From positions 1 to 51,479 of the forward strand of contig MTKO01000072.1 of assembly GCA_004028505.1 (NCBI GenBank): a DNA stretch of 51,479 nucleotides, in the 5' to 3' direction. Shown piece after piece: positions 40,373-44,185 of this stretch (the first letter of the stretch is position 1; every line of letters starts with the position of its first letter). The notes below the pieces were generated by a model that was given only the letters and a program-made list of their open reading frames with translations, was not told where the DNA came from and did not search any database. The translations under genes were made by a program, and so were the position numbers. The stretch is from Candidatus Electrothrix aarhusensis. Lineage in GTDB: Bacteria; Desulfobacterota; Desulfobulbia; Desulfobulbales; Desulfobulbaceae.

Positions 40373-40534
40373 GTGGGTGGTGTGTATATGCTTATTATCT
40401 ATGAAGATTTTTTTTTCAAAAAAAATTTGTACCTTTTTGAGGGATTGACCTATAATTGTTTTTAACAACAAAGGATGTTTCTGAATAACAATGGGTGCTT
40501 GTTTAACCTTAACGAACAAAGAAAAGGAGGAGTA

Positions 40535-42448
40535 ATGAAACGCAAATACATAGGCTTGGTGATGGGGTTAGCAGCCGGGTTGGTTGTAACTGCCGCATCG
40601 AGTTTTGCGCAAGACGCCAAGAAGCCTGAGCTGCTTTCTTTTAAACCGTCAAACCTGCAATGGGAAAAAACTAAGGCTGATTTTGTCGCGCCGAAAATTT
40701 CAACCTGTGCCGGATGTCATCCGAAACAGTATGAAGAGTGGCAGGGCTCAATGCACTCTATGGCTTTTCAGGATCCGATTTATCTTGGTGAGTTGAATCT
40801 GGCTGTTAAGGCGGTGGGTAAAGAGATTACCAAACAGTGTGAAGGCTGTCATACTGCGGCTGCCTTTGTTATGGGCGAAACAGAAACCCTTGATTTCAAA
40901 AACCTCAGTCCATTGGCCGCAGCCGGTGTGTCCTGTGACGTGTGTCATTCTATCAAGAAAACGACCCATTGGGAGACGCCTTCCCATGAGCCGGAAAACG
41001 GCTCTTATGTCCTTTCTCCGGGCAGAAATGACGACAAAGACCCGAAAGGTTTTGTCCGCACAAAATACGGTCCGTTCCCCGACTACGAGGGCTGCGGCGG
41101 CGGTTTTCATGAATGCGTTGAATCTCCCAAGCATCTGACTGCGGAACTCTGTGCGGGCTGTCATCATGTTTACCATTATGACAAACACACTCCATATGAG
41201 TATACTTATGGCGAGTGGAAGAAGAGCTTATACGCTCTGAACGGTATCCAGTGTCAGGACTGCCATATGGTGGATATCGAGACCTTCAAGCGTTCCGCTG
41301 ATGAGTTCATCAAACCGAAACGCAGTGATTATCACCATTACTTCAACGGAGCCAACTTCCTGATGTACTTCCTTGGCGAACTCAGGGCCAAGAAAGAGGG
41401 TAATGAAAAATTGGCGACCAATTTGCAGAATAAATACCAGATGGCGGTAGCGCGTTTGCAGGCTGCTGCTGAGATTGAGATCGACCCGATGTACAATGAG
41501 AAGGGTGACCTATATAAGGTCAGAGTTCGGGTTCACAACCGGCGAGCCGGACATAGCCTGCCGACTTCATTGACTGCTGTTCGCGAGATGTGGCTTGAAG
41601 TCTTGATTACTGATGAGAACGGCAAAGAGCTGATCAAGAGCGGTTATCTGGATAAAGACGGTGAGCTGGACGGCAATACCCATGTCTTTAACTCCGAGGG
41701 TATGGATATGCATCAGGTATTCCAGGTTGATCCCTGGAAAGTCGTGTCCTTTGCCAAGAATAACCTTATTCCGGCCAAGGGATATAGTGATATCGTTTAC
41801 ACTATCCTCTATCCGCCCGGAAAAGGACATCAACTTAATGTTCATGCGAAACTTCGTTTCCGTCAGGCCGGTCAGGCCCTTGCCGAAAAGCTGCTGACCA
41901 ATCTGCCGGATGGGGTTGACCTGAATGACTGGTACGGCTTAACCGAAATTCCGGCTGTCCCGATTGTTGATATGACTGAGAATAATGTAACGGTTGACAC
42001 GACCGGTGAGCCGACTAAGTTGCCGGGTCTTATGGAAAGGTTAAAGGGAAATATTACACATGCACCGCCCAAGAAAGAAGAGGGGCTTAGTCTTTATGAA
42101 CAGCTTGGTGGAGAAAAGGCAGTCGATGCAGCGGTTGATCTTTTTTACAAAAAAGTCTTGGCAGATTCAAGGGTTAACGGTTTTTTCAAAGGGGTTGACA
42201 TGGAGCGCCAACTCAGGATGCAGAAAGGATTTCTCTCCTTTGTCTTTGGCGGACCGATTCATTACTCAGGTAAAAATTTGAGAGCTGCTCATGCGCATCT
42301 TGTGGCAAAAGGACTAAATGGCACCCATTTTAGCATTATTGTTGAACATCTAGGGGCCACTCTGAAGGAGCTTGGCGTCAAGGACGAGCTTGTTCAGCAG
42401 GCAGCCAAGGTGGCCAACAGTGTCAGGAATGATATACTTGGTCACTAA
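40535..42448 (+). CDS. Multiheme cytochrome c fused to a truncated hemoglobin
   Basis: This is a 637-residue exported electron-transfer protein. The start is ATG 40535, after an AAGGAGGAG ribosome-binding site, giving a signal peptide (LVMGLAAGLVVTAASSFAQ). The cytochrome part holds five CXXCH heme sites: CAGCH, CEGCH, CDVCH, CAGCHH and CQDCH, in the first ~250 residues, in the style of the cytochrome c554-like family. A middle domain follows with His and beta-rich sequence (VRVHNRRAGHSLPTSL). The last ~120 residues are a group I truncated hemoglobin: LYEQLGGEKAVDAAVDLFY with Phe-Tyr at the B9-B10 positions, and proximal-type His in LRAAHAHLVAKGLN, then HFSIIVEHLGATLKELGV. Fusion of c-type hemes to an O2/NO-binding globin fits periplasmic reduction or detoxification of O2 or NO. 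I recall such fusions in cable bacteria genomes but could not check. Confidence 0.92.
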   Translation: MKRKYIGLVMGLAAGLVVTAASSFAQDAKKPELLSFKPSNLQWEKTKADFVAPKISTCAGCHPKQYEEWQGSMHSMAFQDPIYLGELNLAVKAVGKEITKQCEGCHTAAAFVMGETETLDFKNLSPLAAAGVSCDVCHSIKKTTHWETPSHEPENGSYVLSPGRNDDKDPKGFVRTKYGPFPDYEGCGGGFHECVESPKHLTAELCAGCHHVYHYDKHTPYEYTYGEWKKSLYALNGIQCQDCHMVDIETFKRSADEFIKPKRSDYHHYFNGANFLMYFLGELRAKKEGNEKLATNLQNKYQMAVARLQAAAEIEIDPMYNEKGDLYKVRVRVHNRRAGHSLPTSLTAVREMWLEVLITDENGKELIKSGYLDKDGELDGNTHVFNSEGMDMHQVFQVDPWKVVSFAKNNLIPAKGYSDIVYTILYPPGKGHQLNVHAKLRFRQAGQALAEKLLTNLPDGVDLNDWYGLTEIPAVPIVDMTENNVTVDTTGEPTKLPGLMERLKGNITHAPPKKEEGLSLYEQLGGEKAVDAAVDLFYKKVLADSRVNGFFKGVDMERQLRMQKGFLSFVFGGPIHYSGKNLRAAHAHLVAKGLNGTHFSIIVEHLGATLKELGVKDELVQQAAKVANSVRNDILGH

Positions 42449-42485
42449 AGGCTACTGAGTAATCAGTTGACGTTGTTGTATCCAA

Positions 42486-42517
42486 ATCCGGCATTCCTCT
42501 CGGGATGCCGGATTTTT
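42486..42517 (+). terminator. Rho-independent terminator after the cytochrome-hemoglobin gene
   Basis: ATCCGGCATTCC and GGGATGCCGGAT pair with one wobble and a TCTC loop, followed by seven T residues, 37 bases after the stop. Confidence 0.9.
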
Positions 42518-42685: not shown

Positions 42686-43033
42686 ATGCAGAAAACGGTT
42701 ATCTTCGCCTTTCAGGGCAATCCCATGTGTTTTATTCATGTACTGCTTAATGCTTTAAATATGGCTGAACAGGGAATGGAGGGAAAAATTATTTTGGAAG
42801 GAGAAGCCGTCAAATTAGTGCCGGAAATGGCAAAATCAGATCATTTTCTCCATAAACTGTATATAAAGGCTAAGGAAGGGGGGCTTATTCTTGGGGCTTG
42901 TCGGGTCTGTTCCAATAAAATGGGCGTTGCAGAAGCGGTGGCAGCTGAGAGCATTCCGTTGATCGGGGAGATGACCGGGCATCCGGCAATGGCCGAATAT
43001 ATAAAAGAAGGGTATACGATTATCACCTTGTAG
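42686..43033 (+). CDS. DsrE-family small protein
   Basis: DsrE-like proteins are small alpha/beta folds that in sulfur-oxidising bacteria carry sulfane sulfur on conserved cysteines; many in anaerobes have no known role. The 115-residue protein starts MQKTVIFAFQGNPMCFIHVLLNALNMAEQG, typical of the fold, and has a Cys pair in ILGACRVCSNKMGVAEA. IPLIGEMTGHPAMAEYIKEGY completes the family pattern. GGAG precedes ATG by seven bases. There are no dsr genes in the window, so a sulfur-handling role is inference from family only. Confidence 0.82.
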   Translation: MQKTVIFAFQGNPMCFIHVLLNALNMAEQGMEGKIILEGEAVKLVPEMAKSDHFLHKLYIKAKEGGLILGACRVCSNKMGVAEAVAAESIPLIGEMTGHPAMAEYIKEGYTIITL

Positions 43034-43198
43034 ATAGAAATTTGCTAAAATTTGCAAATGGAGAATGCGGAGCATCTTACGATGCTTTAGCCTCCTTTGC
43101 AAATATCAATGTGCCTGTTGGTGTTCGTCTCGGACCTTAGCCTGCACCGGTTTTCCTTGGATAACATAAACCTCGCTACTTTTCAAAAGAGTTTTATC

Positions 43199-43480
43199 GT
43201 GAAAGAGAAAACAGTCAACTGTTGGGAATTTAAGGGATGTGGCAGAGAGTTAGATGGGAAAAATGTGTCATTATATGGCCTCTGTCCTGCTGCAGTTGAC
43301 TCCACTCTTGATGGTATACACGGCGGGAAGAATGGCGGTCGCTGCTGTTGGGTGGTCAAGGCTGTGTATAATAAGAACAAAAAGTTTGGCTGCCGCTGCA
43401 CAGTCGATTATACAGAATGCCATGAGTGTAATTTTTATACATTGGTACAGGAGACAACCAAGCTGATCGTCACGGCCTAG
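43199..43480 (+). CDS. Two-CW domain cysteine-rich protein, copy 2
   Basis: This is the 93-residue paralogue of the protein at 15985-16263, with the same Cys-Trp motifs (NCWEFKGCGREL and GGRCCWVV) and the same CHECNFYTLV end. It differs in an insert between the second CW and the C-terminal Cys pair (YNKNKKFGCRCTVDYTEC). GTG 43199 is preferred: it gives the same N terminus as copy 1. The upstream ATG at 43097 would add 34 residues that copy 1 lacks. It sits between a DsrE-like gene and a CZB-domain gene. Confidence 0.8.
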   Translation: MKEKTVNCWEFKGCGRELDGKNVSLYGLCPAAVDSTLDGIHGGKNGGRCCWVVKAVYNKNKKFGCRCTVDYTECHECNFYTLVQETTKLIVTA

Positions 43481-43517: not shown

Positions 43518-43819
43518 TTCAGTTGTCGTTCGCCTCCTTTTTTTGTTATCTCATTACGGCGCTCATATCCCACCTCACGGCAAACGCATGACTTTTGCTC
43601 TAAATGAGCAAAAAAATGATATTATCATTTTTCTATGACATTATTGTATAACTATTTTGTTACATTGTATTTGTTATGAAATTGTAGTGCCACCTTGTGT
43701 TCTTTCTCAGGAGCACGGTGTGGTGTTAATTGTTTAAAAGGTTGACAATTGGTTGTATTATGGGTACTTTTTCAGTATTAAGATTTTATTAAGCCAAGCA
43801 AAATATGAGAGGTGATACG
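43518..43819. other. AT-rich leader region of the CZB gene
   Basis: No gene could be supported here. It contains a perfect palindrome, AAAAATGATATTATCATTTTT (about 43613-43634), and AT-rich stretches suited to a promoter for the CZB-domain gene. The palindrome could be an operator or a hairpin. Confidence 0.45.
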
Positions 43820-44185
43820 ATGGATGTAACACATATACAGGTAGCTATCATAGGCCATTTGCAATGGAAATCAAAACTGTCTGATTTCTTTTACGGAGTG
43901 GACACGCTCAGTGTTTCGCAGGTTCCTGACCATGCAGGATGTGATTTCGGCAAGTGGTTGTACAGTTCAGGCTTGCAGGAATTTTCCGGCTATTCGGAAA
44001 TGAAGTCTGTGGAAGCTCTTCATAAGACATTTCATGAAAAAATTAAACATCTAGTGCAGATGCCCGAAGAAAAAAGAAAGAGCCCAGAGGGTAAGCAAGC
44101 GTTGGAAGATTTTAAAATAGATTGCGATACTTTTGTCAATTTGCTCGAAACTGTTCAGGCAAAGGCTGAGAGGAAAAGTATTTAA
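43820..44185 (+). CDS. Free-standing CZB (chemoreceptor zinc-binding) domain protein
   Basis: CZB domains bind zinc and, in chemoreceptors and cyclases, sense zinc or hypochlorous acid. This 121-residue cytoplasmic protein is only the domain: His in IIGHLQWKSKL, the hallmark Cys-containing motif VPDHAGCDFGKWLYS, and the third His pair in ALHKTFHEKIKHL. It has no membrane segment, so it would act as a soluble sensor or partner. ATG 43820 follows GAGAGGTG; the upstream ATG at 43805 overlaps that site. Confidence 0.87.
   Translation: MDVTHIQVAIIGHLQWKSKLSDFFYGVDTLSVSQVPDHAGCDFGKWLYSSGLQEFSGYSEMKSVEALHKTFHEKIKHLVQMPEEKRKSPEGKQALEDFKIDCDTFVNLLETVQAKAERKSI

Follow-up and report, generated by a model that had tools for sequence, protein, structure and literature searches.

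The closest described relatives of the protein treated here are the large pentaheme cytochromes (PHC; large form, lPHC) of cable bacteria, in which, according to the accessible text of PMC11976967, a truncated hemoglobin (trHb) is absent or sits at the N-terminal end, the C-terminal end or both. The same text names an immunoglobulin-like domain for the lPHC family and counts lPHC as one of the cytochromes in which at least one heme is pentacoordinate. It also relates that Kjeldsen et al. 2019 found the fusion only in cable bacteria and regarded it as maybe an alternative periplasmic terminal oxidase. Under the name tHgb-PHC it has again been put forward for O2 reduction (PMC13047784, accessible part). 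Fibre skeletons are reportedly active in O2 reduction, with the fusion as a named candidate (PMC11976967, PMC13047784), and in strain YB6, which has neither Cox nor bd oxidase, O2 reduction was ascribed to a periplasmic truncated hemoglobin (PMC12093952). Some Electrothrix species carry an aa3 oxidase (PMC10030654, PMC10926707) and one species a bd oxidase (PMC11247825); these statements, too, come from the accessible portions of the articles.

Both the fusion architecture and the proposal of O2 reduction are already published for cable bacteria, and the terminal-acceptor role guessed for this gene in a first-pass annotation coincides with that hypothesis as worded in the accessible parts of PMC11976967 and PMC13047784. 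Activity data for the fusion or any other large pentaheme cytochrome with terminal trHb (lPHCtX) were not found in the literature searched, and literature on GSU2801, the Tetrahymena trHb, Thermochromatium tepidum c552, a multiheme selenoprotein and skeleton electrocatalysis held nothing further on its function. Most of the genomes examined contain no complete terminal oxidase, and the fusion is the published lead on how the current of cable bacteria reaches O2. What makes the locus described here of interest is less its architecture than the way it varies, open to testing, between closely related genomes.

The window, which is the whole stretch of 51,479 nucleotides analyzed, is contig C58 of a 3.73 Mb genome (G000) that is 89.8% complete. 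This genome shares the genus g1 (Electrothrix, eight genomes) with G005 and G002, stretches of which are 100% identical to Ca. Electrothrix marina A5 and Ca. Electrothrix gigas AU1_5; the cable-bacterium host, at first only a supposition, is hereby confirmed as Candidatus Electrothrix. The sister genus g10 (Electronema) comprises five genomes; for two of these, G026 and G034, the stretches compared are the same, letter for letter, as Ca. Electronema aureum GS and Electronema KV, respectively.

The gene is a single open reading frame of 637 aa at positions 40535–42448 of the forward strand, on which its parts, its ribosome-binding site and the hairpin behind it are also located. It begins with an ATG at 40535, preceded at a distance of 4 bases by the ribosome-binding site AAGGAGG (40524–40530), and its TAA ends at 42448; open reading frame, Pfam and PDB matches and a structural model agree in describing an lPHC with a C-terminal globin that is predicted to be exported. 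An alternative longer frame is possible from an ATG at 40475, but the frames of G002, G003, G004 and G007 start at the equivalent of 40535. By inspection, residues 1–25 (40535–40609) form a signal peptide, MKRKYIGLVMGLAAGLVVTAASSFA, predicted to be cleaved after SFA and in front of Q and containing no lipobox Cys; a modelled N-terminal helix covers residues 2–25. The five heme c motifs, supported by sequence and alignment, are CAGCH (residues 58–62, 40706–40720), CEGCH (102–106, 40838–40852), CDVCH (134–138, 40934–40948), CAGCH (206–210, 41150–41164) and CQDCH (240–244, 41252–41266). The gene coordinates given in the first pass are exact, and the signal peptide, the five motifs and the ribosome-binding site noticed there are present.

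The same annotation had taken the gene to be monocistronic with its own terminator, which to it suggested high and separately controlled expression. A terminator scan found an intrinsic-terminator-like hairpin of 14 pairs at 42484–42515, one of three such sites in the region, a number not above the 2.5 expected by chance, although the other two have stems of 6 pairs. The hairpin is a candidate terminator, but the monocistronic reading is not established: a PPDK-like gene on the same strand ends 162 bases 5' of the fusion gene, and co-transcription with it is possible because the scan found no terminator in this gap. High and separately controlled expression is not established.

Downstream, a DsrE/DsrF-like protein with a score at the Pfam cut-off is encoded at 42686–43033 and is the next gene in all eight Electrothrix genomes. 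It is followed by a small protein (43097–43480) that is rich in Cys, matches nothing in Pfam and has counterparts in G003 and G006, and by a stand-alone chemoreceptor zinc-binding (CZB) domain protein (43805–44185), matched in G006 alone among the lPHC loci compared.

What does the chain look like in three dimensions? A structure prediction had been suggested as a check, and an AlphaFold2 model of the protein alone, free of heme, recovered the cytochrome part, a linker and the globin with a mean pLDDT of 87.6 and a pTM of 0.73. It was built from an alignment of 40 rows (A1) that used 38 hand-chosen members of 80 named lPHC loci or their paralogues, these 80 having been kept of 173 found in named genomes. 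In the model, helices surround the heme motifs of the cytochrome part, whose second half, at residues ~312–490 (41468–42004), is rich in beta structure. The linker follows at residues 491–518 (42005–42088), and the globin appears to hang on it flexibly, because residues 500–516 have a pLDDT below 50. Pfam places Cytochrome_C554 (PF13435) at residues 57–139 (4.9e-12), and a profile search of the PDB with A1 returned, among others, MccSep (9wt9, 2.6e-7), 4qo5 (1.8e-4), MccA (4.9e-4) and c554 (0.0013). All five CXXCH motifs are invariant in the 40 sequences, as are His192, His268 and His340, while His74, His200 and His214 are nearly so; these six histidines are possible distal heme ligands.

Pfam, PDB, Foldseek and alignments likewise describe residues 519–636 (42089–42442) as a group I truncated hemoglobin domain. 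The profile search, in which a globin identity proposed from the letters alone could have failed, matched Bac_globin (PF01152) at residues 519–634 with 5e-15 and 56.2 bits, above the cut-off of 21. The best PDB sequence matches of this part are group 1 truncated hemoglobins and their relatives, with 3aq5 at the top (6.6e-34). Sequence family, fold, His-F8 and Phe-B9/Tyr-B10 all agree with group I (N), as the first reading of the domain had claimed.

With the register taken from HMMER alignments against the trHb of Tetrahymena and the cyanoglobin 2hz2, the heme pocket consists of F537 (B9), Y538 (B10), Q559 (E7), M562 (E10), Q563 (E11) and H586 (F8), and the Phe-Tyr pair and the proximal-type His recognized earlier fall on exactly these positions. 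All six residues are identical in 23 of 23 aligned globin domains, namely the matches to the window's globin at E 1e-4 or better within 30 chosen loci. These rows comprise 21 from cable bacteria (G101 and UBA5173 being one locus) as well as G053 and G219 from other Desulfobulbales; nine of the 30 loci contributed nothing at this threshold, their globins being more distant, and distant globins across the phylum mostly have different pockets. The fused globin is under purifying selection, with a dN/dS of 0.155 against G006 and 0.207 against G003. Position E10 is Met in the fusion globin and His in cyanoglobin 2hz2, the latter an iron ligand. Uniqueness of Met-E10 to cable bacteria was considered and rejected, the residue being present in G053, G219 and G569 (locus L166) too.

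Going by its residues, the pocket is of the kind associated with tight O2 binding: the trio Tyr/Gln/Gln at B10/E7/E11 tends toward a high O2 affinity fit for enzymatic activity (PMC11904497, accessible text). The same text allows residue E10 a possible part in binding the iron and in helping electrons across; it reports that Met is bound in the ferrous state of the THB1 K(E10)M variant, and that Shewanella HbN, with its native Met-E10, has a ferrous spectrum like that of five-coordinate TrHbNs. In the fusion globin, Met-E10 is a possible iron ligand.

How far does the domain pairing extend? Among 257 genomes of the order, PF01152 globins are present in 24, and frames of at least 500 aa around such a globin are confined to the two cable genera; in the host's family the PF01152 globins themselves are confined to these genera. 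A search for the pairing elsewhere in Desulfobulbales, which the first pass had recommended, gave the fusion in 7 of 13 cable-bacterium genomes and no globin match in a fusion-length frame in the 244 other genomes of the order. The globin is C-terminal in Electrothrix G000, G003 and G006 and in Electronema G034, occupies both ends in Electronema G026 and G016, and is found at the N-terminal end only in G101/UBA5173. Of 395 genomes sampled from the phylum, the window's own is the single one with a long globin frame, all others reaching at most 221 aa. The uniqueness of the fusion rests on these two sets of genomes and the 80 lPHC loci, and other phyla are covered via the lPHC loci only. Judged by genome titles, five-heme lPHC relatives also occur in Methanosarcinales archaea, Thermoleophilia and Planctomycetota (L099, L105, L107, L088, L097 and others).

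Within Electrothrix, the presence of the globin varies at one locus. The gene order PPDK-like gene, lPHC, DsrE-like gene is kept in all eight genomes, and the C-terminal globin is present at this syntenic lPHC in three of them (G000, G003, G006) and absent in five. In those five (G001, G002, G004, G005, G007) the lPHC stops near the start of the window's globin and the next gene lies 114–266 bases further on; a tblastn search 3' of the shortened genes found no remnant of a globin (best E 2.1). A cytochrome tree unites the five in one clade (100/99) with G003 as its sister (97/93), and G000 and G006 fall outside, weakly (82/63). This pattern fits one gain and one loss of the globin inside Electrothrix. 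The G006 gene (L119:5773-7679) is split over two frames, likely by an indel error in the assembly, because the PPDK-like gene just upstream is split too.

The two genera may even have acquired their C-terminal globins independently, because in the cytochrome tree the Electrothrix lPHC joins an unfused Electronema paralogue (93/90) and not the fused one. In the globin tree, the Electronema C-terminal globins form a separate, divergent clade (100/99). AU tests on this tree did not reject a single clade of all C-terminal globins (p 0.256, or 0.128 when the long G003 branch is left out), nor a single clade of the three Electrothrix globins (p 0.361).

Fusion is not the only way in which cable bacteria keep an lPHC and an exported globin. 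A related stand-alone trHb with a signal peptide, as recognized by inspection, occurs in six of eight Electrothrix genomes (G000, G001, G003, G004, G006, G007) and four of five Electronema genomes (G016, G026, G034, G100); it was not found in G005 and G101, which are both less than 80% complete. The stand-alone trHb of G002, Ca. Electrothrix gigas (L126:3804-4223), starts with MQKSDTQP behind a ribosome-binding site, and it may stay cytoplasmic because it lacks the hydrophobic core that the signal has in other species. A second, different trHb without an evident signal is present in G002, G004 and G007. As predicted from these genes, the common cable-bacterium set is an lPHC plus, in most, an exported globin, and the covalent tether is optional.

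COX1 was found in three of the 13 cable genomes (G004, G006, G007) and in none of the other ten, among them the window's own, CydB in none of the 13, and a partial CydA homologue in all. In Electrothrix, COX1 and the fusion coexist in G006; G000 and G003 have the fusion only, G004 and G007 COX1 only, and G001, G002 and G005 neither, the absences being weak in G000 (89.8% complete) and G005 (69%). As a clean rule, a fusion that stands in for an absent oxidase was rejected, COX1 and the fusion not being mutually exclusive. Neither is the fusion essential to Electrothrix, because G001 (97% complete) and G002 (93% complete) are without fusion, COX1 and CydB alike.

NapA scores above its cut-off in nine of the 13 genomes; in the window's genome it appears as a pair of fragments that overlap and contain stops, close to where a contig begins (G000:C79:94-586). 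That NapA tracks the fusion was rejected as well: G001, G004 and G007 have such a NapA without the fusion, and the fusion-bearing G034 (93% complete) has no NapA above the cut-off. A 1385-aa frame at G000:C1:12710-14734 matches the NapA model piecewise and reads through one TGA; we take it to be possibly a selenocysteine formate dehydrogenase. Similar one-TGA frames exist in G001, G002, G003, G004, G006 and G007.

What, then, might the fusion do? The gene predicts an lPHC that is soluble in the periplasm and carries a single globin at its C-terminal end, and we favor, at a probability of about 0.42, the reading that the fusion reduces O2 at its globin, whether for respiration or for protection. 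All steps of electron transfer and catalysis are ones that we infer: the five c-hemes would take electrons from a periplasmic network made up of small cytochromes and conductive fibres, the flexible linker would allow docking of the globin on one of the cytochrome hemes, which would reduce the globin's heme b, and the ferrous globin would bind O2 tightly until further electrons reduce it. The affinity-favoring trio in all 23 domains (PMC11904497, accessible text), the purifying selection and the restriction of globin and fusion to the cable genera within family and order, respectively, argue for such a role, as does the lack of CydB in all 13 genomes and of COX1 in ten, which implies that an O2-reducing step is still to be found. 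Published skeleton activity, the naming of the fusion as candidate and the analogy to YB6 point the same way, as far as the accessible texts go (PMC11976967, PMC13047784, PMC12093952). On the other side stand the five of eight Electrothrix orthologues without a globin at the same locus, the two near-complete genomes with neither fusion, COX1 nor CydB, the co-occurrence of fusion and COX1 in G006, and the partial CydA homologue in all genomes as another candidate. Free globins, too, are slow to reduce O2, and superoxide or peroxide may escape from them. Moreover, two group N subgroups release O2 faster, which fits storage or transport (PMC4720485, accessible part).

The same pocket can be read differently, and the main rival to O2 turnover is NO dioxygenation: a periplasmic oxy-globin may convert NO to nitrate, with the tethered c-hemes re-reducing the ferric heme, and so shield heme and nickel cofactors from the NO of nitrate reduction. 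The closest solved relative, the Tetrahymena trHb, has the same B10-E7-E11 residues, which the title of Igarashi 2011 calls critical for the stability of bound O2 and NO detoxification, and NO detoxification is thought likely for one group N subgroup (accessible part of PMC4720485). The frequent presence of NapA, fragmentary in the window's genome, would supply a context, but it does not follow the fusion, and the adjoining PPDK-like and DsrE-like genes have no evident NO link; we hold this rival possible though unlikely. A decidedly doubtful option is that the globin does no more than raise the O2 concentration around a different reductase, perhaps a pentacoordinate lPHC heme, such as those listed in the accessible text of PMC11976967, or the CydA homologue. 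The signal-bearing stand-alone trHbs do suggest that cable bacteria retain exported globins to which no cytochrome is covalently joined, but a Tyr/Gln/Gln pocket goes with a high affinity for O2 and its slow release, which would suit delivery badly (PMC11904497, PMC4720485, accessible portions). One peroxidase trHb is mentioned in the accessible part of PMC4720485, but for a peroxidase or a hydroxylamine- or nitrite-reducing globin supplied by the c-hemes there is no pointer among the residues or neighbours examined, and we hold this highly improbable. Peroxidase and hydroxylamine- or nitrite-reducing activities have been reported for some trHbs.

Returning to the O2 reductase, a bolder version is a long shot: a globin joined to the pentaheme cytochrome more than once and droppable, whose Met-E10 would give the ferrous heme His/Met ligation, speed electron entry and yield to O2. 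If true, a modular outlet would end a centimetre-scale wire on a globin, an O2 reductase unlike the known heme-copper and bd oxidases. The invariant Met-E10 provides a concrete spectroscopic prediction, and close Electrothrix relatives, some having and some lacking the globin at one locus, offer a natural experiment that bears on the role of the tether in O2 consumption. No counterpart to this gain and loss comparison was found in the accessible portions of published accounts of cable bacteria.

How does the protein compare with known systems? Its globin shares 52% identity with the Tetrahymena pyriformis trHb (3aq5) in a structural alignment (TM 0.88 by target length), including the B9, B10, E7, E11 and F8 residues; the latter is a free protein, however, with Gln instead of Met at E10. 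The cytochrome part has the fold of the Thermochromatium tepidum pentaheme cytochrome c552 (5ze8; Foldseek E 6.9e-17, TM 0.70 by target length, profile E 3.3e-19 with A1), but identity in the fold alignment is 18% and no globin is listed for c552. Unfused lPHC relatives from Desulfobulbales, Nitrospirota, Shewanella, Planctomycetota and others share the five CXXCH motifs at 77 of 80 loci, whereas the DNA fetched at 76 of the 80 holds no globin ORF (at least 100 aa, BLASTP 1e-5), the remaining four being cable bacteria. Finally, an export signal seen by inspection, a large PHC domain with its five c-heme motifs, a truncated hemoglobin at a terminus of the same chain and a cable-bacterium host make the 637-aa protein almost certainly a member of the published lPHCtX/tHgb-PHC family. 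As far as the accessible texts describe that family (PMC11976967, PMC13047784), the two have in common the five-heme large PHC, the terminal trHb, the periplasmic location and the host group, and do not differ in kind; the window's member carries a C-terminal globin alone.
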